From the NCBI GenBank assembly GCA_028290165.1, contig JAQGKJ010000542.1:1-44501 (forward strand): 44,501 nt of DNA, written 5' to 3'. Below the pieces are notes generated by a model that was not told the DNA's origin, searched no databases, and saw nothing but the letters and a program-made list of their open reading frames with translations. Origin of the DNA: Bradyrhizobium sp. (GTDB lineage: Bacteria > Pseudomonadota > Alphaproteobacteria > Rhizobiales > Xanthobacteraceae). Position numbers and translations under genes: made by a program. Shown here piece after piece: positions 4,997 to 18,057 of the stretch. Every line of letters starts with the position of its first letter. The first letter of the stretch is position 1.

Positions 4997-5482
4997 ATGA
5001 ACAAGCATTCGAACTTCGACGGTTTAGCCAGGCCGCCGGCTTGCGCCATCCGCGCTCACGATCCGGACGACGCTCCGCTTCAGGCATGGCGCACGCTGCC
5101 GGCGCGCGCGTTCGACGCCGCCAAGCGGCGCGCCGTGGCCGCCTCGGTCGCCACGATCTCCTCCACCTGGGAGGATTGGCGCAAAGCAGTCGGAAGCGAT
5201 GCACCGGCCGCCATCAAACTGGCGCTGAGCCTCAACCCCCGGAAGAAGATCTCGTTGCGCGTTGACCTGGTCATGACGGTGCTCTTGAGGTGCGCGCTCG
5301 AGGGCAACGCGGCCGCCGCGTTGGTGCTGTCGCACCTCCTGCGCCGGATGCGGATCGACCCGAGCGTCAGGCACCAGCTTTCCACCAGTTGGCTCGCCTA
5401 CAACCTCACGTCCATCGCCCCGCTGCGCGGCCGCTTCTCCCTCGATGCCTTTGGTGGTGTCCGCCCCGGCGAGAAGGGCTGA
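4997..5482 (+). CDS. Hypothetical protein, helical
   Basis: A 161-residue protein with no recognised domain. After a loose N-terminus, the part from about residue 30 is rich in Ala, Arg and Leu and is probably all-helical (DAAKRRAVAASVATISSTWE; VMTVLLRCALEGNAAAALVL). It has no signal peptide, and the hydrophobic stretches are amphipathic rather than membrane-spanning. The ATG at 4997 follows AGGAG (4983-4987). The stop lies 5 nt before the metallophosphoesterase start, so the two are coupled. It may be a structural partner of the cargo operon; nothing in the sequence says more. Confidence 0.7.
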   Translation: MNKHSNFDGLARPPACAIRAHDPDDAPLQAWRTLPARAFDAAKRRAVAASVATISSTWEDWRKAVGSDAPAAIKLALSLNPRKKISLRVDLVMTVLLRCALEGNAAAALVLSHLLRRMRIDPSVRHQLSTSWLAYNLTSIAPLRGRFSLDAFGGVRPGEKG

Positions 5483-5487
5483 TCGAT

Positions 5488-6294
5488 ATGCGCATCCAGA
5501 TCTTCAGCGATCTGCATACCGACGTCGCATCCATCAAGGCCATCACGGTCCGTCAAGACGTGGACGTGGTGTGCGTGGCGGGCGATGTCGCCCAAGGCGC
5601 GGACAACGCCTTCGAGGTTTTGCGCCGGATCGTGCCGGCGTCGGTGCCGATCGCGTTCGTCATGGGTAACCACGAATTCTACGGTCGCTTCCATGGCGAG
5701 GAACTCGCCGCGGCAAGGACGCTGGCGCCGAGCTACGGCATCACGCTCGTCGAAAACGACGTCACGACGATGATCGGCAACGTCCGCTTCTGCGGCGGCA
5801 CGATGTGGACGAACTACAGGCTGTTCGGCGACCACAACGCGGCGGCCGCGATGAACGCCTCGCGTTACGGGATAAATGATCACCGCCGCATCGGCTGGAG
5901 CAAGCAGCCTTGGGAGAGGTTCCGGCCGCAGGAAGCGCTGGTCCTGCACGAACGGACGCGCAGGTTCATCGCGGACGTGCTCGCGACCCCGCATCACGGA
6001 CCCACCGTGGTGCTGACCCATCACGCTCCTCACTACCGCTCGGTCCCGGAGCGCTACGCGAGCGATATCCTGTCGGCCGCCTTCGCTTCCGACCTGAGCG
6101 ACATGATGTGGGCTGCCGCCGGCAGCGCGCCCGATCTCCGGGATTCGTCCCGCGCCGCTCGAATTTGGATTCATGGGCACATCCACTCCTCATCCGACTA
6201 CGTGGTCGGCGCCACGCGCGTGATCGCGAATCCGCATGGGTACGGCGGCGAGAACCCCGCCTTCGATCCCTGCATGGTGGTGGAGCTCGGCTAA
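5488..6294 (+). CDS. Calcineurin-like metallophosphoesterase
   Basis: A 268-residue dinuclear-metal phosphoesterase. The signature blocks appear in order: D8-L-H10 (IFSDLH), G-D33 (VAGDVA), G-N61-H62-E (VMGNHEF), a THHAPH histidine block, and the C-terminal GHIH. All metal ligands are present, so it should be active, though the substrate (nucleotide, nucleic acid or protein phosphate) cannot be read. It is cytosolic, with no signal peptide. The ATG at 5488 follows GAGAAGGG at 5471-5478. In this operon, next to an HNH nuclease and an AAA protease, it may process nucleic acid ends or a cyclic or di-nucleotide; that is inference. Confidence 0.9.
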   Translation: MRIQIFSDLHTDVASIKAITVRQDVDVVCVAGDVAQGADNAFEVLRRIVPASVPIAFVMGNHEFYGRFHGEELAAARTLAPSYGITLVENDVTTMIGNVRFCGGTMWTNYRLFGDHNAAAAMNASRYGINDHRRIGWSKQPWERFRPQEALVLHERTRRFIADVLATPHHGPTVVLTHHAPHYRSVPERYASDILSAAFASDLSDMMWAAAGSAPDLRDSSRAARIWIHGHIHSSSDYVVGATRVIANPHGYGGENPAFDPCMVVELG

Positions 6295-6450: not shown

Positions 6451-6804
6451 ATGCTGACCGACATCTTTCCCTTCCTCGCTCCGCGACATCAGGAGCGCTC
6501 GCTGCCCGAACGCCTCCGCCAACTCGCGGACGACGTCGGCGCCATCCGCGACGGCGCCGCTCCGTCGCCCGACCAGATCGATCGCGCGCCGCTGTTGAGC
6601 AACTGGGGGATCGTAGTGACGCCGCTCGGCGTCCGGCTGGTCGGGTTCGTCTCGGGGCATCCCCGGCTCGGCAAATGCACCGTGATGACCTCCCAGCTAT
6701 GGGCCGCGGATCCCGCCGGCGCCTGGGTGCGAACTCTTTCCAGGTTCTACAGGCTGGGCGAGCCGGCCGTCGAGACCGCCGAGGACGGCCCGCGCCATGT
6801 GTGA
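6451..6804 (+). CDS. Small protein resembling the DUF6634 family
   Basis: A 117-residue protein. Its second half has a conserved-looking core: LLSNWGIVVTPLGVRLVGFV, SGHP, TSQLWA and TLSRFYRLGEP. From memory this matches a Rhizobiales family called DUF6634, with no known function. The ATG at 6451 (MLTDIFPFLAP) is preferred because the upstream open stretch is low-quality coding sequence containing a hairpin. No strong Shine-Dalgarno is visible. The 3' end overlaps the AAA protease start by 8 nt, so it is probably coupled to that protein. Confidence 0.65.
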   Translation: MLTDIFPFLAPRHQERSLPERLRQLADDVGAIRDGAAPSPDQIDRAPLLSNWGIVVTPLGVRLVGFVSGHPRLGKCTVMTSQLWAADPAGAWVRTLSRFYRLGEPAVETAEDGPRHV

Positions 6805-9082
6805 GTCCACCATCGACGCCACCATCCGGAGCGGAAACGCGAGCCCGGTCGCCACCGGGATGGGTCCTCTCGAACTCGCCGTGTACAAGGCCGGCTGGAT
6901 GGTTTCGCGGCGATATCTCCGCCATGTCGCCGACGTGGCGATGCAGCGGGAGCTCGAGGCCGCGGCCAAGACGGCGCAGGACGAGATACTCAAGACCGCG
7001 GGCAGAAGGTTCGACCGCGCCGCCGCCGATCAGGCGGCGCACAAGCCCAAGAGCGGATTTGCCGCTCTGCGCCGCGCCGTCCGCGACTTGGACGAGGACG
7101 ACGACGAGGCGCGCGACATCGACGCGCCGACGCCGGGCCGGATCGCCGCGCGCCTCCTGCTCGCACGCCTGTTCGACGCCGCGCCTGGTTCGATAGAATC
7201 GCTTCGCACCGGCTCGCCGGTCATCACCGTCGACGTGCCGGACGCGGCGATGTTCAGCCGCGTGTCGCATCAATGGAGGAGCGCCTTGGCGCTCGAGTCG
7301 CTCGCCTCGCTCGACCTCGCCCAAATCTCCGACCGCGCGAAGCGCGAAGACTACGACCTCATCTATCTGGCGACGGCCGACACTCTTTCCGCGAAGGAGG
7401 CGCCGGCTGCGGAAGCCCGCGCATTCAACGCGATCCAACTCGCGCTGCCGGTGCTGGCGTTCAGCCCCCGTGCCCGCACGCACCTGGCGAAGGCGCTGCT
7501 CGACGCGGCGAGCCACTCGCTCGCGCTGCCGGCGATCGATGCCACCGTGATCGCGCGCGTGATCAGGATCGTCACCGGCAGGCCGTTCCGGTCGGTGCTT
7601 CCGCAGCGCGTCGTGGCCGACACCGGCATCCACGAACTGATCCTCTCGGTCCGGTTCGACCGCTCTCCGGAGGAATGCGTCGCGCACCTCGTCCGGCTCG
7701 CCGAGGCCAAGGATTCGCGGCGCGGCTCCAGGGACCTGAGCCTCGACGAACTGCACGGCATCGACGAGGGCGTCGCCTGGGCGAGGTCCACCCTCCGCGA
7801 TATCGAAGCCTGGAGGCGCGGCGAGATCGCCTGGGACGCGGTCGATGCCGGCGTGGTGCTCAACGGTCCTCCCGGCACCGGCAAGACAACGTTCGCGAAG
7901 GTGTTCGCCGCGGAAAGCGGGCTTCCCCTAATCTCGGCGACGCTGGCGAAATGGCAGGGGAGCGGTGAGGGGCATCTGGGCCATCTGCTGCGGGCGATGC
8001 GCAGGGATTTCGACGAGGCGAGAAGCAAGTCCCCCGCCATCATGTTCGTAGACGAACTGGATTCGTTTCCGAACCGGTCGGGCGTGCTGCATTCGCACCG
8101 CGACTACGTGGTGGAGGTGGTCAACGGCTTCATCGAATCCTTGGACGGCGTCGCCGGGCGCCAGGGCCTGATCTTCATCGGCGCCACCAACGACGTGTCG
8201 CGCTGCGACCCCGCGATCGTGCGGGCGGGGCGACTCAACCGCATCATCCAGGTGAGGCTTCCGGGAGCGGACGACCTCGAAAAGATGATGCGGGTCAGGC
8301 TGCGCGGCCGGCTCGCGGACCAACCGATCGACAAGGTCGCGCTCCTGGCGGTCGGATCGTCGGGCGCGGACGTCGAGCGCATCGTCAAGGACGCCGCCCG
8401 CGCCGCTCGGCACGCGGCACGACAATTGACCGTTGACGACCTCCGCCGCGCCGTGACCGGAGTAGACGACATTCGGGACGACATTCTCGACCGCGTCTCT
8501 GTGCACGAAGCCGGACACATCGTCGTCCACGTCGTCAACAACGGGCCCGACGACGTCCGCGCCGTCATCGGAGGGACCATGGAAAAGGCCGGGTACGTGG
8601 CTTGGCAGGCGTCGGCCGGATCTGCCGGCACGGCCGAGGAATGTCGCCGCACGCTGCAGGCTCTGTTGGCCGGTCGCGCGGCCGAAGAGATCGAACTCGG
8701 TGCCGGCGGCAACGGTGCCGGCGGCTCCCCTCACTCGGACCTCGCCCAAGCAACCAGACTGGCCGCGGCGATGGTGGGGTCTTACGGTCACAGCGGGCCT
8801 CACCCCTTGCTGTACGTCGGCGACCACCGCCGGAGCGACGAGATTCTCGATCACGCCTACCTGAGGACCGCGGCGCATGAGGAGCTTTCGGCAGCCCACG
8901 CCGAAGCCAGGCGGATACTGCAGGAACACCGGCCCGCCCTGCGCGAAGTCGCGCGGCGGTTGCGAATCCATCGCCGCATCGACGGCAACGAGGTGGCCGC
9001 GATCCTGGAGAAATTCGCGCGGTCGCACGCATCGCCGGAGCCGGCGCGTCCGGGCGGCTCGGAGCAAATACGGCCCGCATGA
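6797..9082 (+). CDS. FtsH-like AAA+ ATPase with M41-type zinc peptidase domain, no membrane anchor
   Basis: A 761-residue ATP-dependent protease. Residues 1-340 are a helical region with no transmembrane helix. The AAA+ module has Walker A GPPGTGKT (357-364), Walker B IMFVDELDSF (D419, E420) and a GATNDVSRCDPAIVRAGRLNR region carrying sensor 1 and the arginine fingers. The peptidase domain has HEAGH (570-574) and a third zinc ligand, probably D648 in SDLAQATRLAAAMV. Housekeeping FtsH has two N-terminal membrane helices and is ~600-650 residues, so this is a soluble relative with a new N-terminal domain, perhaps a substrate receptor. It overlaps its neighbours at both ends, placing it firmly in the cargo operon. 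Confidence 0.9.
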   Translation: MCESTIDATIRSGNASPVATGMGPLELAVYKAGWMVSRRYLRHVADVAMQRELEAAAKTAQDEILKTAGRRFDRAAADQAAHKPKSGFAALRRAVRDLDEDDDEARDIDAPTPGRIAARLLLARLFDAAPGSIESLRTGSPVITVDVPDAAMFSRVSHQWRSALALESLASLDLAQISDRAKREDYDLIYLATADTLSAKEAPAAEARAFNAIQLALPVLAFSPRARTHLAKALLDAASHSLALPAIDATVIARVIRIVTGRPFRSVLPQRVVADTGIHELILSVRFDRSPEECVAHLVRLAEAKDSRRGSRDLSLDELHGIDEGVAWARSTLRDIEAWRRGEIAWDAVDAGVVLNGPPGTGKTTFAKVFAAESGLPLISATLAKWQGSGEGHLGHLLRAMRRDFDEARSKSPAIMFVDELDSFPNRSGVLHSHRDYVVEVVNGFIESLDGVAGRQGLIFIGATNDVSRCDPAIVRAGRLNRIIQVRLPGADDLEKMMRVRLRGRLADQPIDKVALLAVGSSGADVERIVKDAARAARHAARQLTVDDLRRAVTGVDDIRDDILDRVSVHEAGHIVVHVVNNGPDDVRAVIGGTMEKAGYVAWQASAGSAGTAEECRRTLQALLAGRAAEEIELGAGGNGAGGSPHSDLAQATRLAAAMVGSYGHSGPHPLLYVGDHRRSDEILDHAYLRTAAHEELSAAHAEARRILQEHRPALREVARRLRIHRRIDGNEVAAILEKFARSHASPEPARPGGSEQIRPA

Positions 9083-9970: not shown

Positions 9971-11008
9971 TCATGCGCCGTTGATCGTTTTCTCCAACTC
10001 GGCGATCCGCTTCAGGATGTCGTCGAAGCTCGGCGGCGGATCGTCGAACATCATCGGCACCATCTTTCGGTAGTCGGCGCGCAGATCGGCGATCCGGCGG
10101 GGATGTGGCGAGAGCCGCAGAGTGCCGGCGCGGGCGGTGTCGTAACTCGCCCATCCCGAGCGGAAGAACAGCGACTTGTGGTCGGCGACCTGCTTCAGCA
10201 GATCGGTATCCTTCATCCCCTTCTTGCCCTCGTCGGTGTCAGCCAGCGTCGCGAGGTCGTAGTAGTGCCGGGAGAAATATTGCGGCGTCGCGGATTCGAG
10301 GTCGCGGTGATGTTCGGCGTGAAGCGCCGTCGCCTTCTCCCAAAAGGTGCGCCGCAGCGCCAGAACGTCGACCGAACAACCCGGTGCTTCGAAGAAGTCC
10401 GGAAACTCCTGCGCGGCATACGATACGATTTCCCGCTTTTCGGTCGGCCAGGGATCGCCGCGCGCGCCGAACTCCAGCGTGACCCTGCTGCTCATGTACG
10501 CGAACCCGGCATAGTCGTTCTCGGGCAGGCTGACCGGATACTCGAAGATCAGGTTCTGCGGTTCGCCCGGATCGATTTTCAGGCTCCAGTCGGCCTCCGC
10601 CGCGGGACCCAGTTCGCGCTCGATGGCCGCGCTCAGGCGCGGCAGCACGACGGTCTCGATGTGCTTTGCGACGGCGGCGACGAGATCGTGGATCAGTTTA
10701 TCGGCCTTCTTCCGCGAAGGTGCGGCTTCCGGATCGCGGTCGCCTCCGTAACCGAGATCGGCGCGGTCGAAGGATAGATCGATGTCTTCCGAGAACCTGC
10801 GGATCGCGTCGTAGCCCTTCGAGAGCGACGTGCCGCCCTTGAAGACGAGTCCCGGCGAATCCTCGCCCTGGATGCCGAAGAGCCGCTTCAGCGTCCAGCA
10901 GACCCAGAAATCCTTTTCGATGATGGCGTCGGCCAGGCCGCGGGCCGCGCCCGCCTGGTTGAACAGGGCGGCGCGGTCCGCCGCCGGCATCAGGGCGACC
11001 TTGTCCAT
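9971..11008 (-). CDS. abiEii: AbiEii-type nucleotidyltransferase toxin
   Basis: A 345-residue toxin of the AbiE (type IV) toxin-antitoxin and phage-abortive-infection family. The diagnostic nucleotidyltransferase block is present: FKGGTSLSKGYDAI (GGTSLSK at 58-64), then RRFSEDIDLSF with acidic residues E74, D75 and D77. The remaining ~250 residues are the helical nucleotidyltransferase-like body. Known AbiEii proteins transfer nucleotides (GTP-favouring) and are bacteriostatic until restrained. The gene follows abiEi by a few bases, the standard antitoxin-first order. It is full length with no damage seen, so the pair is probably functional. Confidence 0.92.
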   Translation of the reverse strand: MDKVALMPAADRAALFNQAGAARGLADAIIEKDFWVCWTLKRLFGIQGEDSPGLVFKGGTSLSKGYDAIRRFSEDIDLSFDRADLGYGGDRDPEAAPSRKKADKLIHDLVAAVAKHIETVVLPRLSAAIERELGPAAEADWSLKIDPGEPQNLIFEYPVSLPENDYAGFAYMSSRVTLEFGARGDPWPTEKREIVSYAAQEFPDFFEAPGCSVDVLALRRTFWEKATALHAEHHRDLESATPQYFSRHYYDLATLADTDEGKKGMKDTDLLKQVADHKSLFFRSGWASYDTARAGTLRLSPHPRRIADLRADYRKMVPMMFDDPPPSFDDILKRIAELEKTINGA

Positions 11009-11012
11009 GGCG

Positions 11013-11618
11013 TCAGCCCGAGGCCTGCCGTACGATCCGATCCAACGCGGGGCGCATCCAGGCCGGCGCCTGCTTCATGCCGTTGGCCAACGCGCGCCGG
11101 TCCGAGTCCTTCAGACGCGGAGCCGCGGCGTCGACGACGGCCGAAGCAGAGTCGGGTCCCAAATGGCGCAGGGCCTGAACGACAGTGCCTGCCATGCTGC
11201 CCGGCGCGACGAGATGCTTGGGCGAAGCATGGCGGATGTCCACGGTCCGCTTGCCAAGCACGACGCGTCGAGAAGGACCGTCCGTCAGATACACGCTGCG
11301 TGCCGGCACCTGCGTGGACAATCCGAGTGCGTTGGCCGCCTGAGCGCCGGCCATCTGCAAGTTGGAGCCGGTCTCGCGCGCGAAGGCCTTGGCGACGACG
11401 TCGGGAGCAGGCGCCAAGGCTCCCAACCGCGCGTGGACACGGGGGTAGTCATAGAGACCGTGAGCAAGACGGCGAAGCCGCTTGTCCTTGCACAGACGCG
11501 ACAGAGCCTGGTCCACTGCAGCGCGGCTTCCCAAGCCCACGAAATCGGAAGGCGTGAAGACGCTGCCCGGGCCCCGGGCCCGGACCTGCCGCAAAATCCT
11601 GTCCGCTATCGAATTCAT
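11013..11618 (-). CDS. abiEi: AbiEi-type antitoxin / transcriptional regulator
   Basis: A 201-residue antitoxin partner of AbiEii. It has an N-terminal winged helix (IADRILRQVRARGPGSVFTP, then SRAAVDQALSRLCKDKRLRR) and a C-terminal domain with YLTDGPSRRVVLGKRTVDIR. Known AbiEi proteins bind inverted repeats before their own operon and neutralise the toxin. The ATG at 11618 (MNSIADRIL) is chosen because GAGGAG lies 6-7 nt upstream; the open frame runs further but adds poor sequence. It ends a few bases before abiEii. An inverted repeat 18-43 bp upstream fits autoregulation. Confidence 0.9.
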   Translation of the reverse strand: MNSIADRILRQVRARGPGSVFTPSDFVGLGSRAAVDQALSRLCKDKRLRRLAHGLYDYPRVHARLGALAPAPDVVAKAFARETGSNLQMAGAQAANALGLSTQVPARSVYLTDGPSRRVVLGKRTVDIRHASPKHLVAPGSMAGTVVQALRHLGPDSASAVVDAAAPRLKDSDRRALANGMKQAPAWMRPALDRIVRQASG

Positions 11619-11635
11619 GTCTCGCTCCTCTTCCG

Positions 11636-11661
11636 TCAGAAAATAGTACAAGTTTTTCTGA
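11636..11661. promoter_or_regulatory. Inverted-repeat operator before abiEi
   Basis: Perfect 8-bp arms TCAGAAAA (11636-11643) and TTTTCTGA (11654-11661) around a 10-nt AT-rich spacer, starting 18 bp upstream of the abiEi start codon. AbiEi-type antitoxins are known to bind inverted repeats at this kind of place, so this is a good autoregulation site. Confidence 0.6.
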
Positions 11662-11767
11662 CACGCAAGCCTCATCGTTATGCCAACAAGCCTTTCTCTT
11701 TCAACAACATAGATAACAGTTCCTGTCCGGCTTGGTTCCAGACCAAAAGATTTTCCGCCGGCAGTAC

Positions 11768-11795
11768 TTGACCTGCACGATAGTAAGATTATCTT
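11768..11795 (+). promoter_or_regulatory. Promoter-like elements for the nucleotide operon
   Basis: TTGACC (11768-11773) and TATCTT (11790-11795), spaced 16 nt, resemble sigma-70 -35 and -10 boxes. They lie 26 nt before the first gene of the plus-strand operon. The -10 box falls inside a perfect palindrome, as expected for a repressed promoter. Confidence 0.5.
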
Positions 11796-11797
11796 AC
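11783..11797. promoter_or_regulatory. 15-bp palindrome GTAAGAT-T-ATCTTAC
   Basis: Perfect 7-bp arms around one base, covering the putative -10 box 25 bp before the small first gene. This is a classic XRE-repressor operator position. The likely binder is the XRE protein encoded two genes downstream, at 12121. Confidence 0.65.
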
Positions 11798-11821: not shown

Positions 11822-12124
11822 ATGGAACCCAAAGACCTCGTCGATGCGCTGATCGCCATCATCGGCCAGATTCAGACCGACAGCGAACTCGAATGTCCCC
11901 CGCTCACGGGCGCGACCAAGCCCGTGGGCACCGTTCCGGAGTTCGACAGCAAGATCTGGCCCGTCGCGACGACGATCCTGGCGACCGAGATCAACATCCC
12001 GATTCCGGACGACGTCAATATCTTCATCGACGAGACGACGAAGGCACCGCGTTCGATCGAGGAAATCGCGGTGTTCGTGTGCGAGCTCCAGAAGAAGCAG
12101 GGCAAGAAGCAAGCAGCAGCATGA
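11822..12124 (+). CDS. Small protein of unknown function, first gene of the nucleotide operon
   Basis: A 100-residue acidic protein with no recognised domain (MEPKDLVDALIAIIGQIQTD at the start; a Lys/Gln/Ala tail). It has no signal peptide or membrane segment. The ATG at 11822 has AGGAG at 11810-11814. Its stop overlaps the start of the XRE regulator (ATGA), so it is coupled to that gene. Its place right after the operator suggests an accessory, antitoxin-like or anti-repressor role, but the sequence gives no direct evidence. Confidence 0.7.
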   Translation: MEPKDLVDALIAIIGQIQTDSELECPPLTGATKPVGTVPEFDSKIWPVATTILATEINIPIPDDVNIFIDETTKAPRSIEEIAVFVCELQKKQGKKQAAA

Positions 12125-12483
12125 CCGATCAGGATTCAGTCACACGCAGCCAGATCGCCGAACGTCTCAAGGAGGCGCGGAAGCTTGCTGGACTCTCGCA
12201 GGGGCACGTCGCCCGGATGCTCGGATTGCACCGGCCTTCGGTTTCCGAGATCGAGGCGGGCAACCGGCGGGTCTCCGCCGACGAACTCGCAAAGTTGGCC
12301 GCCCTCTACGACGTGAGCGTCGCCTGGCTGCTGCGGGAAGTGCCCGATTCCGTCGACGCGGAAGACCCGCGCCTCGAACTTGCCGCCCGCGAACTCTCCA
12401 AGCTCAAACCGGAAGACCTGCAGCGGCTGCTCAATCTGCTCGCGGTGATGCGGAACGACAAGGACGAGGGGAGCGGCGGTTGA
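12121..12483 (+). CDS. XRE-family transcriptional regulator
   Basis: A 120-residue repressor. Residues ~10-70 are a standard XRE helix-turn-helix: ERLKEARKLAGLSQGHVARM then LHRPSVSEIEAGNRRVS and LAKLAALYDVSVAWLL. The C-terminal ~45 residues are helical (LAARELSKLKPEDLQRLLNL) and probably dimerise. It is directly followed by an ImmA/IrrE metallopeptidase. In mobile elements such a pair works as a repressor plus the protease that inactivates it on a stress signal. Its likely operator is the palindrome at 11783-11797. Starts and stops overlap on both sides. Confidence 0.88.
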   Translation: MTDQDSVTRSQIAERLKEARKLAGLSQGHVARMLGLHRPSVSEIEAGNRRVSADELAKLAALYDVSVAWLLREVPDSVDAEDPRLELAARELSKLKPEDLQRLLNLLAVMRNDKDEGSGG

Positions 12484-13367
12484 TGACTGCGATGCGGACG
12501 AACAAGCCGAGCCTGGATCGCCGCTCGTTGGCAACCCAAGCGATGCAGACCGCGGTGGCCACGCGGGCTGAAGCGGGGGTCGGCCAGGCAGGGCCGATCT
12601 GCATCTACGCTGTCTGCGAGACGCTCGGCGTGAACGTGCGCTTCAACAACATCAATATGGAAGGGATGTACCAGCGCGGCGCGCAGCCGCGCATCCATCT
12701 GTCCGCGCGGCGCCCGCTGCCGCGGCGGGCGTTCAATTGCGCTCATGAACTCGGTCACCACAAGTTCCGCCACGGCACCTCCATCGACGAACTCCGCGAG
12801 GATGCGAAGTCGAACCCCTGGGAGGACCCCAAGGAATTTCTCGCCGACACGTTCGCGGGTTTCGTGCTGATGCCGACGATCGGCTTGCGACGCGCCTTCA
12901 AGGCACGCGGCTGGACGCCGGCGACGGCGACGCCGGCGCAGATGTTCACCATCGCCTGCGAATTCGGCGTCGGCTACAACACGCTCCTGACGCACCTCTC
13001 CGGCGGCATGAACATGCTGCCGTACGGGCGGGCAAAGATCTTGAAGCGAACGAAGCCCAGCGCGATACGCGCCGAGCTTCTCGGCGCGCTCACCCCGGAG
13101 CCGCTCCTCGTCGCCGATCTTCATCGCGTTTCGCCGACGCTCGATACCGAGGTCGACTCGCTGCTGCTGCTTCCAGAGGGTACCCAGGCGGGCGGCGGCG
13201 CGCTCGTCCACGAACGCGACCTCGAGACCGGCCGCCTCTTCCGCGCCGTGCGCTCCGGCATCGTCCGGGCGACCGCCGGCGATTGGGCGGCGTTCGTTCG
13301 CGTCGCACCCGAAGCCTATGTGGGACTGGCCCGATACCGACACTTGGAGGATGATTCCGATGAGTAA
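12483..13367 (+). CDS. ImmA/IrrE-family zinc metallopeptidase
   Basis: A 294-residue protein with the M78-type motif: AHELGHHKF with HELGH at 88-92, followed by the acidic stretch EFLADTFAGFVLMP, which carries the likely third ligand. ImmA-type peptidases cleave a partner XRE repressor to switch on a mobile element or stress operon. The domain after ~residue 180 (LLVADLHRVSPTLDTEVDSL, then AGDWAAFVRVAPEAY) is longer than the minimal family and may sense something. The ATG at 12483 overlaps the XRE stop (TGATG). The gene overlaps the next one by 8 nt. Confidence 0.88.
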   Translation: MTAMRTNKPSLDRRSLATQAMQTAVATRAEAGVGQAGPICIYAVCETLGVNVRFNNINMEGMYQRGAQPRIHLSARRPLPRRAFNCAHELGHHKFRHGTSIDELREDAKSNPWEDPKEFLADTFAGFVLMPTIGLRRAFKARGWTPATATPAQMFTIACEFGVGYNTLLTHLSGGMNMLPYGRAKILKRTKPSAIRAELLGALTPEPLLVADLHRVSPTLDTEVDSLLLLPEGTQAGGGALVHERDLETGRLFRAVRSGIVRATAGDWAAFVRVAPEAYVGLARYRHLEDDSDE

Positions 13368-14211
13368 GTCCAATTCGCACGCCGACGAACCGACGATCAT
13401 CGCCGACACCAACCTTTCCCGGGCATGGGCGCGTCTCTTCCTCCGGATCTTCGACAGCCGTCGGACGGAGCTCTCGCCGCTGACCTTGAGCCTCACCGGC
13501 TTCGACACCGACGGCGGCATCGCGGAGATCGCAGGCGTCCGCGAATCCCTCGACCGCACGCTCAAGCTCAAGCGCAAGTTTTCCGTCGAAACCGTCGCGT
13601 TCACGATCTTTCCCGACAGGCTGTGGAAGATCGCCCGCGGCGACCGAAAGCGCCTCTTTTCGCTGTATGCCGGAGCCTTTCCGCGCTACGTCGCGATGAA
13701 CCGCGCGGCCAACGGACGGGGACTTTATTTCGAGCGCATGACCAATTTCAGCAAGGCGGTCCCCTGCGACGGCAACCAATTGGAATTCATCCTTTCCAGC
13801 TACAATGAACGAGCGGGTGTCCGCGATACGATGCTGCAGGTGGCCATCTTCGACCCCGCCCGCGATCACATCAAGATGGCGCGGGTCGGCTTTCCGTGCC
13901 TGCAGCACCTCTCCTTCGTGCCCACCAAGGAGGGCCTTGCGGTCAACGCCTTCTATGCAACGCAGTACGTGTTCGACAAGGCCTACGGCAACTACCTGGG
14001 CCTCGCCCGACTCGGCGCCTTCATGGCACATGAACTCAATCTTCCGCTGGCGCGGCTCAACGTTACGGTGGGCGTCGCCAACCTCGACGGCGTCAAGAAA
14101 TCCGACGCCTCGCTGGCGCCCCTGATCGCCGCGGCACGCGCCGCCGTCGCGCCTGCGGCTCCGCCGAAGGCTCCGCGGCCGGGCGTGACCGCGAGGGGAG
14201 CTTCGGCTTGA
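13360..14211 (+). CDS. Divergent thymidylate-synthase-fold protein
   Basis: A 283-residue protein with the core of the thymidylate synthase / dNMP hydroxymethylase superfamily. GFPCLQHLSF holds the likely catalytic C180. AFYATQYVFDKAYGN lines up with the YQRSADVFLGxPFN block, keeping the Asn (N211). GLARLGAFMAHEL is the following helix. The phosphate-binding Arg-Ser of that block is Ala-Thr and the Asp is Tyr, so it probably does not use dUMP in the usual way. The ATG at 13360 follows TTGGAGG and overlaps the metallopeptidase stop. The stop overlaps the next start. It may alter pyrimidine C5 or simply bind a nucleotide. Confidence 0.7.
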   Translation: MSKSNSHADEPTIIADTNLSRAWARLFLRIFDSRRTELSPLTLSLTGFDTDGGIAEIAGVRESLDRTLKLKRKFSVETVAFTIFPDRLWKIARGDRKRLFSLYAGAFPRYVAMNRAANGRGLYFERMTNFSKAVPCDGNQLEFILSSYNERAGVRDTMLQVAIFDPARDHIKMARVGFPCLQHLSFVPTKEGLAVNAFYATQYVFDKAYGNYLGLARLGAFMAHELNLPLARLNVTVGVANLDGVKKSDASLAPLIAAARAAVAPAAPPKAPRPGVTARGASA

Positions 14212-15320
14212 AGGAGAAGGCGCGTAAACCCCCTGCGGGAAAACCGCGCGGCGGTACGGCGAAACCGAAAGTCTCGGCATCGGTGAGCAAATCGGTTCCG
14301 GCGTCGCCGCTTATTTTCTCCCACCTGGCCCCGGCGAAGGTCTCGGAAGTCTATGAGAGCTATTGGCGCTTCGCCACGGAACGACAGGCGGTATTCTTTC
14401 GCAGAGCCCGAGCTGAGGCGAGCCCCTGGACGCAGGATGCCGTGATCTCGACCTACAAGTTCACAAACGCCTACAGAGCCTCCGACCGTGTAAGTCAGTA
14501 CCTGATCCGGAACGTCATCTACCGCGAAGATCTGCCGAAAACCCCTCCGGAGGTGTTCTTCCGGATCCTGCTGTTCAAGCTGTTCAACAAGATCGAAACC
14601 TGGGAACTTCTGGAAAACGCGCTCGGTCCGATCACCTTCGAGAGCTATCGCTTCGATCGCTTCGACGAGGTCCTGGCCCGCGCGAAGGCCGCAGGCAAAC
14701 GGATCTATTCCGCCGCATACATCATGCCGCCGGGTAGCGCCGCGTTCGGCCGACCTGCCAAGCACCAGAATAATCTGCTAATGCTCGAGCGGATGATGGC
14801 CGATCGCCTTCCCGATCGCCTCGCGCAGGCTCGTTCGATGCAGGACGGTTTCGAGAGATTGCGGTCGTATCCGACGATCGGCGACTTCCTGGCCTATCAG
14901 TTCGTGATCGACGTCAACTACAGCGAGATCACCAACTTCAGCGAAATGGATTTCGTCGTCCCCGGCCCGGGTGCCCGCGACGGCTTGCGCAAGTGCTTCG
15001 TCGATCCTGGAGGACTGAACGAGCCCGAGCTCATCCGCATGATGGCCGATCTTCAGGAGCAGGAGTTCGAGCGCTACGGACTCGATTTCGAACCCTTGTG
15101 GGGCCGTCGGCTTCAACTGATCGATTGCCAGAACCTTTTCTGCGAGGTCGACAAGTATGCGCGCGTCGTTCACCCGCACGTCGTCGGCAAGACAGGCCGG
15201 ACCCGGATCAAGCAGAAATTCCAGCCGATTTCGACGCGGGTCGATCCGTTCTATCCGCCCAAATGGAAGATCAACGACAAGATCCAGACGACCGCATCGA
15301 AACTTCGGGCGACCGGATAG
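14208..15320 (+). CDS. Stand-alone helical-domain protein of the 5-hmdU DNA kinase / thymine pyrophosphorylase group
   Basis: A 370-residue protein that I match to the HMUDK_hel type (the helical domain of phage 5-hydroxymethyl-dU DNA kinases, related to α-glutamyl/putrescinyl thymine pyrophosphorylases). Key blocks are YKFTNAYRASDRVSQYLIRN (about 83-102), FFRILLFKLFNKIETWE, IYSAAYIMPPG, DFVVPGPGARDG and IDCQNLFCEVDKYARVVHP. There is no Walker A P-loop, so the kinase module of the phage enzymes is absent. The start is TTG at 14208, after GAGGGGA, overlapping the previous stop (TTGA); no good ATG exists. In phages these enzymes build hypermodified thymine; here the target is unknown. Confidence 0.7.
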   Translation: MKEKARKPPAGKPRGGTAKPKVSASVSKSVPASPLIFSHLAPAKVSEVYESYWRFATERQAVFFRRARAEASPWTQDAVISTYKFTNAYRASDRVSQYLIRNVIYREDLPKTPPEVFFRILLFKLFNKIETWELLENALGPITFESYRFDRFDEVLARAKAAGKRIYSAAYIMPPGSAAFGRPAKHQNNLLMLERMMADRLPDRLAQARSMQDGFERLRSYPTIGDFLAYQFVIDVNYSEITNFSEMDFVVPGPGARDGLRKCFVDPGGLNEPELIRMMADLQEQEFERYGLDFEPLWGRRLQLIDCQNLFCEVDKYARVVHPHVVGKTGRTRIKQKFQPISTRVDPFYPPKWKINDKIQTTASKLRATG

Positions 15321-15336
15321 CGAACAGGAGCGTAGC

Positions 15337-16233
15337 ATGGACTTCGAGACCTATCAGAAGGAAGCCCTGCGTACTGACCGCGTGCCGGCACACGGCAATG
15401 ATGACGTGGCCTCCCTTATCGTGCCGATGCTGGGGCTCGCCGGCGAGACCGGACAACTGCTGAGCGAATACAAGAAGCACCTGCGCGACGGCGAAGCCCA
15501 TCGGCTCTTCAAGGAGCGCGTTTCCGAAGAGCTCGGCGACCTCATGTGGTACATCGCGAACGTCGCCAGCAAGTTTGGGCTCGCGTTGGATGACGTGGCC
15601 GTCGCCAACCTCGAGAAGACCCGCAACCGCTTCCTGTCCGACAACGTCGTGCCGGACAGTTTCGATACCGATCTTCCGGACGCCGAACGACTGCCGCGCA
15701 GGTTTGAGGTCCAGCTCATTGACAGAGACGGCGCCGAACGACAAAGCGTCCGCGTGATCATCGACGGAGAGCCCTTCGGGGCCGAACTGACGGACAACGC
15801 ATACGATCCCGACGGCTACCGCTTCCACGACGTTTTCCATCTCGCGTATGCGGCCGTGCTCGCATGGTCGCCGGTGACGCGGTCGTTGATCCGCCGAAAG
15901 CGAAAAAGCAGGCCGCTGCTCGACGAAGTCGAGGACGGCGGTCGGGCGGCGGCGATCGAGGAGGGCATCGCCGCGCTGGCGTTCGACTATGCCCGCCGGC
16001 ACCGGATGCTGGCGGGCGTGGCACGGCTGGATTTTCAGCTTCTACGGACGGTCAAGGACATGACCTCGCACCTGGAAGTCAACCGGCGCACCACCGGCGA
16101 GTGGGAGCAGGCGATCCTTTTGGGCTTCGAGGTCTGGCGCGCCGTGCACGCCGCCGGCGGCGGACGGATCGCGGTCGACCTCGACGCGCGCCGCATCGCC
16201 TATCTGGGACCGGCCGGGGTTACCGCGGCGTGA
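15337..16233 (+). CDS. MazG-type NTP pyrophosphohydrolase with a second C-terminal helical domain
   Basis: A 298-residue protein. The N-terminal MazG-like all-α module has GLAGETGQLLSEYKKHL (first acidic pair) and RVSEELGDLMWYIANVA (the E-E-x-x-D metal block). The second half, from about residue 160, has YRFHDVFHLAYAAVLAWSP, then DEVEDGGRAAAIEEGIAALA and DMTSHLEVNRRT. It looks like a MazG-related C-terminal domain known from conflict-system proteins. Family enzymes cleave (d)NTPs to monophosphates and pyrophosphate. ATG at 15337 follows CAGGAG. It is the fifth metabolic gene in the operon and its 3' end overlaps the opposite-strand AcpS gene by 34 nt. Confidence 0.85.
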   Translation: MDFETYQKEALRTDRVPAHGNDDVASLIVPMLGLAGETGQLLSEYKKHLRDGEAHRLFKERVSEELGDLMWYIANVASKFGLALDDVAVANLEKTRNRFLSDNVVPDSFDTDLPDAERLPRRFEVQLIDRDGAERQSVRVIIDGEPFGAELTDNAYDPDGYRFHDVFHLAYAAVLAWSPVTRSLIRRKRKSRPLLDEVEDGGRAAAIEEGIAALAFDYARRHRMLAGVARLDFQLLRTVKDMTSHLEVNRRTTGEWEQAILLGFEVWRAVHAAGGGRIAVDLDARRIAYLGPAGVTAA

Positions 16234-16619
16234 GCCGCGTCGCCGAGCGCGATGGCACTGGCGATGGCCATGCCGCCGGCGTGGCTGATGCTCAACCGCC
16301 AGCCGGTGACGCCGAGACCTTGCGCGGCCAGGGCGGCCCCGCCGCACAAAACGACCTCCGGAGGCCCGCCCGGTTTGCGGCGAACGACGACATCCTTGAA
16401 CGCGACGCCGGCGCCGAAACCCGTGCCGAGAGCCTTCAGCACCGCCTCCTTGGCGGCGAACCTGCCGGCAAGCCGTTCGATCCGGTCGGGACCCTCGCTG
16501 ATCTCCGCGAGCTCGTCGGCGGTGAAACAGCGCGAAACGAGCGGATCGCGAGGGTCTTCGATCCATCGGCGCAGCGCGGCGACTTCGACCAGATCAATTC
16601 CGTGTCCGATCACGTTCAT
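16200..16619 (-). CDS. acpS: AcpS-type 4'-phosphopantetheinyl transferase (holo-ACP synthase)
   Basis: A 139-residue AcpS-like enzyme that loads phosphopantetheine from CoA onto a carrier protein. The catalytic metal site is complete: GHGIDLVEV with D9, and RFAAKEAVLKALG with E58, at the same numbers as classical AcpS. The C-terminal LSISHAGGMAIASAIA is the family's SxSH block. It is slightly longer than E. coli AcpS (~126). It lies on the opposite strand inside the nucleotide operon and overlaps the mazG-like 3' end. No acyl carrier protein is seen in the window, so its target is unknown. It is probably an extra copy, not the housekeeping one next to lepB/pdxJ. Confidence 0.88.
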   Translation of the reverse strand: MNVIGHGIDLVEVAALRRWIEDPRDPLVSRCFTADELAEISEGPDRIERLAGRFAAKEAVLKALGTGFGAGVAFKDVVVRRKPGGPPEVVLCGGAALAAQGLGVTGWRLSISHAGGMAIASAIALGDAAHAAVTPAGPR

Positions 16620-16715
16620 CCTTCACGGTCCCTTCGGGTCGCCATCGTCGTTGACGGCGCCACCCAGGGCGGCGCGACGAGACAATAACCATAAAATGCA
16701 GCGGGGAAATCGGCC

Positions 16716-17468
16716 ATGATGACGGGATCATTCTGGAGCGGCGAAACGCTGACCGAGCGCCTGGCCGGTCTGATCGAGCCATTCTCGCCCGAACGGATCG
16801 ATTGCGCGGCGTATACCCTCGCGGTGGGGCCCGAGGTGTACGTCTCCCCGAACGATCAGACCGTCGATCCGACCACGGTCACCGTGCGCAAGCTTGCCGA
16901 CGGCGAAGCTTTCACCATCCCTCCGGGACAGTTCGCATTCCTTTTGACGGAGGAGGTCGTGTCGGTACCGGCGGACGCGATCGCCTTCATCTCGATCCGG
17001 GCCAGGACGAAGTTCAAGGGTCTGGTGAACGTGTCCGGATTTCACGTCGATCCCGGCTACCGCGGCCAGTTGACGTTCGCGGTCTTCAACGCAGGCCCGG
17101 TCCCGATCCACATCAGGCGCGGCCAGCCGACCTTTCTCATCTGGTACGCCCGCCTCGATCGCGAGACCGCCTTCAAGAAGGATGGCCAGGTCCACAAGGG
17201 CATCGATATCGACGCCGTGACCTCGGTCGCCGGCGAGCTCCAATCCTTTGCCGGCCTGTCGAAGAAACTGAAGGATCAGGACAAGTCGCTGGGCGACCGG
17301 ATTCATGCGATCGAGCGCGAGCAGACCTACTACCGCGGCATCGGCGCGCTCGTCCTGGCGATTGCGGTGGCCTTCAGCGTGAACTGGGTGAAGGACACCT
17401 TCGCCGCCAAGCCGCAGCGCGACCTCCCCGCAGCGGGCTCGGCATCGGCGCCGCCCAAGGGACCGTAG
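16716..17468 (+). CDS. dCTP deaminase/dUTPase-fold protein with C-terminal membrane anchor, active-site altered
   Basis: A 250-residue protein with a dCTP deaminase/dUTPase jelly-roll fold: ERIDCAAYTLAVGPEVYVSP, IPPGQFAFLLTEEVV, ISIRARTKFKGLVNVSG, HVDPGYRGQLTFAVFN and IHIRRGQPTFLIWYARL. The deaminase Glu in the LEFxN block is Ala (A122), and the RSSxxR motif is degenerate. The Asp of HVDPGYRG (D112) is kept, as in dUTPases. Residues ~182-203 are coiled-coil-like, and ~207-225 (GIGALVLAIAVAFSVNWV) form one membrane helix, so it should be inner-membrane anchored. ATG 16716 follows GCGGGGA. It may be a nucleotide sensor or effector rather than a deaminase. Confidence 0.8.
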   Translation: MMTGSFWSGETLTERLAGLIEPFSPERIDCAAYTLAVGPEVYVSPNDQTVDPTTVTVRKLADGEAFTIPPGQFAFLLTEEVVSVPADAIAFISIRARTKFKGLVNVSGFHVDPGYRGQLTFAVFNAGPVPIHIRRGQPTFLIWYARLDRETAFKKDGQVHKGIDIDAVTSVAGELQSFAGLSKKLKDQDKSLGDRIHAIEREQTYYRGIGALVLAIAVAFSVNWVKDTFAAKPQRDLPAAGSASAPPKGP

Positions 17469-18057
17469 CCGGAGGCGGGCCCCGCCCGCCGGCGGGGACC
17501 GTTTGGACGCGTTCCATAGCATGGGTGCAACCTTCGCCGAAGCCCAGTAATCAGCTTAAGCTATTGATTTCGCTTACGTGGAAACATGTTCGGCTAATTG
17601 GTTGATGCCGGCGATTCCGGCGGCGTCGCAAGGCCGCTTCTCCGGGGCGCGACCGTCCATTGACCTCACGTCGGCCAGCGAAGTGCGCGCCGCCGCGTGC
17701 TCGCTGAACGAATAGCGATGGCCGACCAGAACCGTTGGCGCCTTGCCGTGAATGGGGTACACAACGGTGGTACACGGCTTCCACCGGCCGTCGCGAGAAG
17801 TCCTTGTTTTAGCAGAATTTTCGAGTGGCTTGGGTTTATGGGTGAGAGTCCCACTCTCTCCGCCACCGATTTTCAGTAGCGAAAAAGTCCTTCAAAATCA
17901 GACTCTTCTCGAACCGCCGGAAAATGACGGTGTAGCACTCTCCCCAAGCTACCACTTGGGACCGGCGGTCTCGACTCAAAACTCTGCAGCCTTTCATTCC
18001 CCCAAAGCCGAGGTTTGGCGGGTGCTGAGGCACTGGCGAGCCGAAGTCGCAGATCCG
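17469..18057. other. Island right edge, no intact gene
   Basis: No convincing gene in 589 bp. It contains a GC-rich hairpin just after the dCTP-deaminase-fold gene (about 17471-17497, no T-run), a short minus-strand open stretch of unknown origin (17574-17762), a GGTACAC direct repeat near 17757, and the tRNA-like scar. The next gene on the right is on the minus strand and ends at 18058. Confidence 0.5.
17839..17865 (+). repeat. tRNA-Ser 3'-end-like attachment scar
   Basis: The sequence GGGTGAGAGTCCCAC followed by TCTCTCCGCCA resembles the T-arm, acceptor strand and CCA of an alphaproteobacterial tRNA-Ser. The upstream bases do not form a tRNA, so only the 3' end is present. Partial tRNA 3' ends are the usual mark of integrase att sites. 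The T-loop is degenerate (TGAGAGT against TTCGAGT). The matching copy is not in the window and would lie left of position 1. Confidence 0.5.

Follow-up and report, generated by a model that had tools for sequence, protein, structure and literature searches.

According to the DefensePredictor study (PMC13092281, 2026), thymidylate synthase (TS), dNMP kinase, 5-hydroxymethyldeoxyuridine (5-hmdU) kinase and NMAD domains belong to phage-defence systems validated in Escherichia coli, while aGPT-Pplase, MazG, MazG-C, dUTPase and uracil-DNA glycosylase (UDG) systems, the last named in a figure legend, are predicted there and not validated. In the parts available, PMC11078745 and PMC13160076 report the UDG-superfamily glycosylases Brig1 and Brig3 as phage defences, and PMC13373217 describes CapP as activated by single-stranded DNA and cutting CapH, the pair controlling immune operons. 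Here we analyse eight genes at 11822–17468 of a 44,501 nt stretch of Bradyrhizobium sp. DNA (GenBank assembly GCA_028290165.1, contig JAQGKJ010000542.1, positions 1–44,501 of the forward strand; 'the window' below), where an XRE/ImmA pair accompanies genes whose nucleotide-centred character, proposed in a first-pass annotation made from the letters alone, is borne out by domain matches.

The block belongs to a real, conserved and modular system, the kind of which was partly foreseen, since DefensePredictor validated TS and 5-hmdU-kinase domains and predicted systems with aGPT-Pplase, MazG-C, dUTPase and UDG. We read it, at a probability of about 0.4, as an inducible immune operon in which an XRE/ImmA switch would govern a TS-like protein, a MazG and an N-glycosylase acting on C5-modified deoxyuridine-type nucleotides or DNA.

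Layout, conservation and exchange of parts

All eight open reading frames (ORFs) of the block are present where the first-pass annotation had placed them. The plus-strand unit runs from an acyl-carrier-like protein (P0001, 100 aa; 11822–12124) through an XRE (Cro/C1) repressor (12121–12483), an ImmA/IrrE metallopeptidase (12483–13367, with ATG at 12483 and a possible alternative TTG at 12480), a TS-like protein (13360–14211) and an HMUDK_hel protein (P0005, TTG start; 14208–15320) to a MazG pyrophosphohydrolase with a MazG_C domain (15337–16233), and the gene for a membrane-anchored dCTP-deaminase-fold protein (P0008; 16716–17468, plus strand) lies downstream. The compact spacing claimed for these genes holds, in that the first four junctions overlap by 1–8 nt, HMUDK_hel and MazG are 16 nt apart and MazG and acpS overlap by 34 nt. 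The single eight-gene block does not: acpS (16200–16619, encoding the holo-acyl-carrier-protein synthase AcpS) is convergent, on the minus strand, and therefore lies outside the block's transcript, and the DCD gene begins 96 nt past it.

The first-pass annotation had staked its proposal on the genes being conserved together, and they are, across genomes and plasmids. The order small protein, XRE, ImmA, TS-like, HMUDK, MazG is found by our own profiles in three Bradyrhizobium contigs and is kept on Rhizobium, Sinorhizobium, Nostoc and Allocoleopsis plasmids. For a wider survey we took every MazG_C match in four overlapping samples (9 of 397, 4 of 398, 13 of 385 and 11 of 296 genomes), an anchor chosen so that loci were not picked by outcome. 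This gave 34 loci in 32 genomes, L001 among them; L059, which came from a TS query, and every plasmid or viral locus stand outside this count. Neighbours were scored within 6 kb of MazG_C with our own profiles, which were seeded with Acuticoccus plasmid genes and trained on the surveyed loci, and which could favour presence but hardly exclusivity.

Exactly one N-glycosylase-type gene is present in each of the 34 MazG_C loci, HMUDK_hel in 15 and a UDG-superfamily gene in 19. Profile scoring alone gives 15, 18 and one locus with neither (L113), where the UDG profile missed a UDG–SocA fusion; in L068 the UDG is split in two pieces. The probability of zero overlap between HMUDK and UDG is 5e-10 with kinship ignored, the 34 loci forming 23 clusters at 70 % MazG_C identity. 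The fusion in L113 (4973–6097) joins UDG to a SocA_Panacea antitoxin-type domain and lies downstream of the MazG_C and TS-like genes. P0176, in which HMUDK and MazG_C form a single chain, was set aside: its end seems to leave the frame, so that a sequence fault may have joined the two.

The rule is that MazG_C brings one glycosylase and not the reverse, because HMUDK loci are often without MazG_C: among the HMUDK-anchored plasmid loci examined (15 of 22 matches), 8 have MazG_C and 7 do not, among five HMUDK-anchored viral loci none has it, and the module-I plasmid loci L015 and L039 (module I is defined below) are likewise without a MazG_C match.

The glycosylase and MazG_C are accompanied by one of two modules, callable in 32 of the 34 loci: module I, the window's type (carrier protein, XRE, ImmA, in some loci a C1 peptidase, and TS-like protein), in 19, module II (TIR and Nmad2) in 13, and both in none; in L097 and L101, where the contig ends less than 400 nt from MazG, the module is undecided. 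HMUDK stands with module I in 11 loci and with module II in 4, and UDG with module I in 8, with module II in 9 and with an undecided module in 2. The 19 module-I loci, of which L113 was assigned on its TS-like gene alone, hold the carrier protein in 16, AcpS in 8 (all of them HMUDK loci), the membrane DCD protein (DCD-TM) in 5 and the C1 peptidase, with its catalytic motif conserved, in 9 (7 of 8 UDG loci versus 2 of 11 HMUDK loci); one of them, L061, has a weak TIR match (45 bits) and no Nmad2. Module II was called by Nmad2 (13 of 13), TIR being above threshold in 9 and weak (35–56 bits) in L064, L106, L114 and L115; its TIR is of the ThsB type (9e-71 to a ThsB model for one). A fusion is possible in L115, where one long frame (780 aa) seems to take in both the Nmad2 and the MazG_C match.

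Mobile elements carry these genes as well. Among 72,556 plasmid records, HMUDK occurs in 22 and MazG in 37, and on two viral contigs (L024, 2880–6732; L025, 5075–8906) a set of DUF1643, carrier-like, XRE, ImmA, TS-like and MazG genes follows the terminase large subunit gene, in L024 between the terminase and portal genes. Neither carrier-like ORF was picked up by the carrier profile; one of them has a sub-threshold PP-binding match. Our own profiles find neither HMUDK nor UDG in the two sets; the DUF1643 gene is present, a family that we assume to belong with the UDG fold. Defence-type genes lie nearby in several loci, namely Shedu in L037, SIR2 in L010, an ABC-three-component system in L011 and AbiEi/AbiEii beside the window block. 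The Gloeothece plasmid pP742404 (22.6 kb; L012, 114–4660) has a gene for a patatin phospholipase of the type found in cyclic-oligonucleotide-based antiphage signalling systems (CBASS), followed by HMUDK, MazG, a ThsB-type TIR and an Nmad2-profile gene, and bears additional genes for TIR proteins and for a papain-like protease. On an Erythrobacter plasmid (L014, 5309–10679) and a Sphingosinicella plasmid (L018, 5309–11221), HMUDK_hel lies between exonuclease/dnaQ and dnaE genes, without MazG_C; in L021 (1650–7053) and L023 (4850–7940) TIR, Nmad2-profile and HMUDK genes occur without MazG_C, together with TS and O-methyltransferase or radical SAM genes.

The switch, the encoded proteins and the neighbouring genes

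The annotated pair of an XRE repressor and an ImmA/IrrE protease is confirmed. The two genes (HTH_3, 1.8e-15; Peptidase_M78, 1.8e-17) have capH (4.1e-17) and capP (2.3e-11) as their best PADLOC matches, at moderate scores of 61 and 42 bits, and the HELGH zinc motif of ImmA is kept across 30 aligned sequences. Upstream of the carrier gene a palindrome, GTAAGATTATCTTAC, lies at 11783–11797, and we predict it to be the operator bound by the XRE protein; when up to two mismatches are allowed, the window contains it once, against 0.01 matches expected. The form GTAAGAnnnTCTTAC starts 31–38 nt upstream of the profile-defined carrier ORF in all 15 window-type loci tested, which range from Bradyrhizobium to Nostoc (the window copy starting 39 nt before the carrier ATG), the set being the HMUDK-type module-I loci of Pseudomonadota and cyanobacteria with a carrier ORF and without C1 peptidase; L069, whose carrier gene lies past the contig end, was excluded. 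The 1.26 Mb of sequence fetched contain 11 copies of the strict form TAAGATnATCTTA, each in a different window-type locus. A further 17 module-I loci, 14 with a C1 peptidase gene and 3 from Streptomyces, were tested and lack GTAAGAnnnTCTTAC; four of them (L004, L040, L042 and L063) have a different palindrome, TGTCGG.....CCGACA, upstream of the carrier gene, perhaps their operator.

The first gene, listed at first simply as a small protein, is now predicted to encode an acyl-carrier-like protein, a reading that replaces the former in view of an invariant serine, a structural model and annotated distant relatives. The serine (Ser43 in P0001, the predicted phosphopantetheine site) is conserved in 31 of 31 distinct family members and the preceding Asp in 29; with one Pro they are the only columns conserved at 85 % or more in these members. 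In the AlphaFold2 (AF2) model of P0001 (mean confidence, pLDDT, 65) a helix (residues 45–56) directly follows Ser43, and most of the 50 matches listed by VIA-align are named carrier proteins, the others listed being single chains from large assemblies (respiratory complex I, Emb and MmpL5 complexes, one Ycf2 complex), not all of whose titles give the chain's name. Distant members carry the database annotation acyl carrier protein, one Streptomyces member exceeds the Pfam PP-binding cut-off, and a mixed profile including the Streptomyces members retrieves acyl carrier proteins at 1e-4. PF00550 matches 6 of 36 family members at E<=0.1, P0001 not among them. When a P0001-only profile was aligned by hhalign with a viral-contig relative, no more than 38 C-terminal columns aligned, at a probability of 73. 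AcpS (ACPS, 1.4e-16) keeps D9, E58 and K62, which we take to be its functional residues, in 15 of 15 sequences, and is the likely partner of the first gene product, whose acyl-carrier-like character would account for acpS.

The TS-like protein falls far below the cut-off of a family model that it matches (NCBIfam thy_syn_methano, 2.1e-5; 24.1 bits versus 174.55), has no Pfam match, and its profile finds no Protein Data Bank (PDB) chain at E<=0.01, the nearest PDB relative being a CMP 5-hydroxymethylase at E 0.053. Cys180 and Asn211 are identical in 28 of 28 aligned sequences, and we tentatively equate them, on the weak hydroxymethylase alignment, with the catalytic Cys and the pyrimidine-reading Asn of TS; four plasmid orthologues bear the database name 'thymidylate synthase'. 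Near the Sinorhizobium fredii copy, beside a DCD-TM gene, L011 also holds a true TS-family gene (683–1738; PF00303, 1e-19). In the MazG protein, proposed to have two domains, MazG_C is clear (PF18722, 6.4e-75) and the MazG match borderline (PF03819, 1.5e-4), and the EExGD-type motif is kept across 41 aligned sequences.

P0005 has an unambiguous HMUDK_hel domain (PF18723, 6.4e-111; 370.6 bits versus a cut-off of 25), as the first-pass annotation had it. Since PF18723 is its sole Pfam match at E<=1 and no kinase domain was found, its reading as a kinase was rejected; a 5-hmdU DNA kinase presumably has a P-loop kinase domain beside the helical one. The AF2 model of P0005 best fits N-glycosylases of the helix-hairpin-helix (HhH) or DUF2419 type and not kinases, clear of unrelated folds, with a nucleotide-type N-glycosidase as best match, and we predict from it that HMUDK_hel is an N-glycosylase-type protein; this would explain the exchange of HMUDK_hel and UDG at one slot. 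D93, K185, D235, D306 and E313 are invariant within the family and may include residues of a catalytic acid and base pocket.

The dCTP-deaminase-fold membrane protein was correctly seen as regards its fold (DCD, 3.6e-18) and membrane anchor, and the idea of an active deaminase was rejected. Aligned to E. coli Dcd, P0008 has Ala where 1xs1 has Glu, as does the 1xs4 chain, which we take to be a mutant of Glu138, presumably the catalytic residue of Dcd. Ala or Ser takes this position in 14 of 14 family members, and all 13 full-length members have a hydrophobic C-terminal stretch (19-residue mean hydropathy 1.45–2.89, one below 1.6). Because the deaminase Glu is replaced throughout, the protein is probably a nucleotide-binding membrane protein, a sensor or effector, and not a deaminase. 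Altogether XRE, ImmA, HMUDK_hel, AcpS and DCD have clear family matches; what was revised is the first gene, the nature of P0005 and the probable activity of the DCD protein.

Elsewhere in the window, an AbiEii nucleotidyltransferase gene and an AbiEi-type gene (9971–11675, minus strand) form a type IV toxin–antitoxin pair upstream of and divergent from the block; further genes encode a calcineurin-type phosphoesterase (5290–6294) and a 761-aa protein with AAA and M41 peptidase parts (6797–9082), the AAA part partially matching the IetA type. Just past the block, at 17844–17865, lies GAGAGTCCCACTCTCTCCGCCA, a single occurrence in the window, which we take to resemble a tRNA-Ser 3' end and possibly to mark an island boundary; ARAGORN found no tRNA.

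Proposed mechanism and alternatives

Under the immune-operon reading, the XRE protein would at rest sit on the palindrome at 11783–11797 and keep the operon off, until single-stranded or damaged DNA derived from infection activates the ImmA protease and XRE is cut; we infer this trigger, and likewise the chemistry and the order of steps that follow. The TS-like enzyme would take a dUMP-type nucleotide and act on its C5 position, the C5 group being carried by, or passed to, a phosphopantetheine arm placed on the carrier by AcpS. MazG would hydrolyse the corresponding triphosphate, and the N-glycosylase (HMUDK_hel, or UDG in sister systems) would sever the modified pyrimidine from its sugar, working either on phage DNA, in the manner of Brig1, or on a free nucleotide, in the manner of the queuosine glycosidase; by either route phage DNA synthesis would fail. 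The membrane DCD protein may bind the altered nucleotide and act at the membrane. We infer the defence role itself from the regulator, the exchange with a ThsB-type TIR module, the location on mobile elements and the nearby defence-type genes. Several points weigh against this reading: on sequence alone both the carrier call and the TS-like call are weak, P0001 having no Pfam match and the profile of its subfamily retrieving no PDB chain, and HMUDK_hel also occurs without MazG_C.

The alternative that survives best, although we hold it to be unlikely, is second-messenger immunity, in which the core would make or edit a modified pyrimidine nucleotide and the dead DCD protein would bind it and disturb the membrane through its C-terminal helix, a patatin phospholipase or TIR serving as effector elsewhere. 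The replaced Glu and the hydrophobic C terminus of the DCD family agree with this, as does the Gloeothece plasmid, where the phospholipase gene directly precedes HMUDK and MazG; but this CapV case is a single one, the DCD-TM gene is optional, being in just 5 of the 19 surveyed module-I loci, and the eight window proteins include no nucleotide cyclase and no ThsA-type effector.

Considering that UDG occupies the HMUDK slot in 19 of 34 loci, removal of a modified base fits better than its building, and this tells against a quite unlikely reading in which the TS-like protein, HMUDK_hel and MazG would build a C5-modified thymidine in the resident's or a mobile element's own DNA, as a restriction-like self mark or a phage-derived shield, much as phages with hypermodified thymine do. 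Relatives of HMUDK_hel in 477 of 50,697 phage records (among the 30 listed, one is annotated as alpha-glutamyl/putrescinyl thymine pyrophosphorylase), their public database name 'putative DNA base hypermodification protein' and the two plasmids with HMUDK beside exonuclease/dnaQ and dnaE favour such a shield or mark, but P0005 is without a kinase domain and a damage-type switch is ill-suited to a constant mark.

Still less probable, in our view, is plain nucleotide depletion, with MazG and the glycosylase destroying dTTP, dUTP and dCTP pools on infection and sensing left to the TS-like and DCD proteins: the carrier protein would be left without a role, the TS-like protein retains its Cys and Asn, and the deaminase Glu is replaced, even though the conserved MazG motif and the nucleotide-type N-glycosidase matched by the P0005 model are what depletion would ask for. 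Least probable is an ordinary housekeeping function outside immunity, in which damage would induce the operon to clear oxidised or modified pyrimidines by pool sanitation and base excision. MazG, UDG and HhH-type folds do belong to sanitation and repair, and ImmA/IrrE pairs can drive damage responses, as described for PprI; but the system is patchy among the sampled genomes, is found on plasmids and inside a viral structural block, and is exchanged with a ThsB-type TIR module.

Returning to the immune operon, we also entertain, as a long shot, a more specific form of it in which the TS-like protein would use the phosphopantetheine arm instead of folate, the dead DCD membrane sensor would read the product and the N-glycosylase would cut it, all of this forming one input/output module on a MazG and N-glycosylase core, which in other loci is joined instead to a ThsB-type TIR module. 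If this holds, the carrier chemistry of phosphopantetheine, otherwise that of fatty acid, polyketide and peptide synthesis, would have been recruited to bacterial immunity; two unrelated glycosylase folds would exchange at one slot, which offers a direct test of HMUDK_hel function; and Nmad2, MazG_C and HMUDK_hel, until now orphan domains, would find their place in one pathway. The two-by-two swap of core and module is, moreover, a simple genetic handle, in that mixed pairs should predictably work or fail.

Relation to described systems

The first-pass annotation knew of no named system with this exact set. This stands in so far as PADLOC (2023) matches only the regulator pair and no description of the gene set beyond DefensePredictor was found in the literature searched; it has to be tempered in that the available text of DefensePredictor partly foresaw the kind. 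Nor was any account found there of a carrier protein paired with AcpS, of a dead deaminase in such a set, of the palindrome common to these loci or of the two-by-two exchange. With the DefensePredictor systems the present loci share a domain vocabulary, Nmad2, UDG, HMUDK_hel and MazG_C co-occurring in the surveyed loci; the main text of that study mentions neither 'acyl carrier' nor 'ImmA'.

What the sister loci have in common with Brig1 and Brig3 is a UDG-superfamily gene set in mobile, defence-like surroundings. Those enzymes, in the portions of the reports available, excise hydroxymethylated cytosine-type bases from phage DNA, whereas here the glycosylase goes together with MazG_C and one of the modules, and the window protein is HMUDK_hel and not UDG. 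With phage thymidine hypermodification (5-hmdU DNA kinase and aGPT-Pplase) the window shares the HMUDK_hel domain, in a protein without a kinase domain and in a bacterial operon with an XRE/ImmA pair. The eight window proteins gave no CD-NTase match, as CBASS would, and no TIR or ThsA match, as Thoeris would (the search for ThsA being confined to these proteins); the likeness to Thoeris lies in the ThsB-type TIR of module II in sister loci. Unlike CapH/CapP, the window pair is preceded by a carrier-protein gene and controls no CD-NTase, and it resembles that pair in the small XRE gene placed beside an ImmA gene near the head of the operon, with a palindrome upstream.

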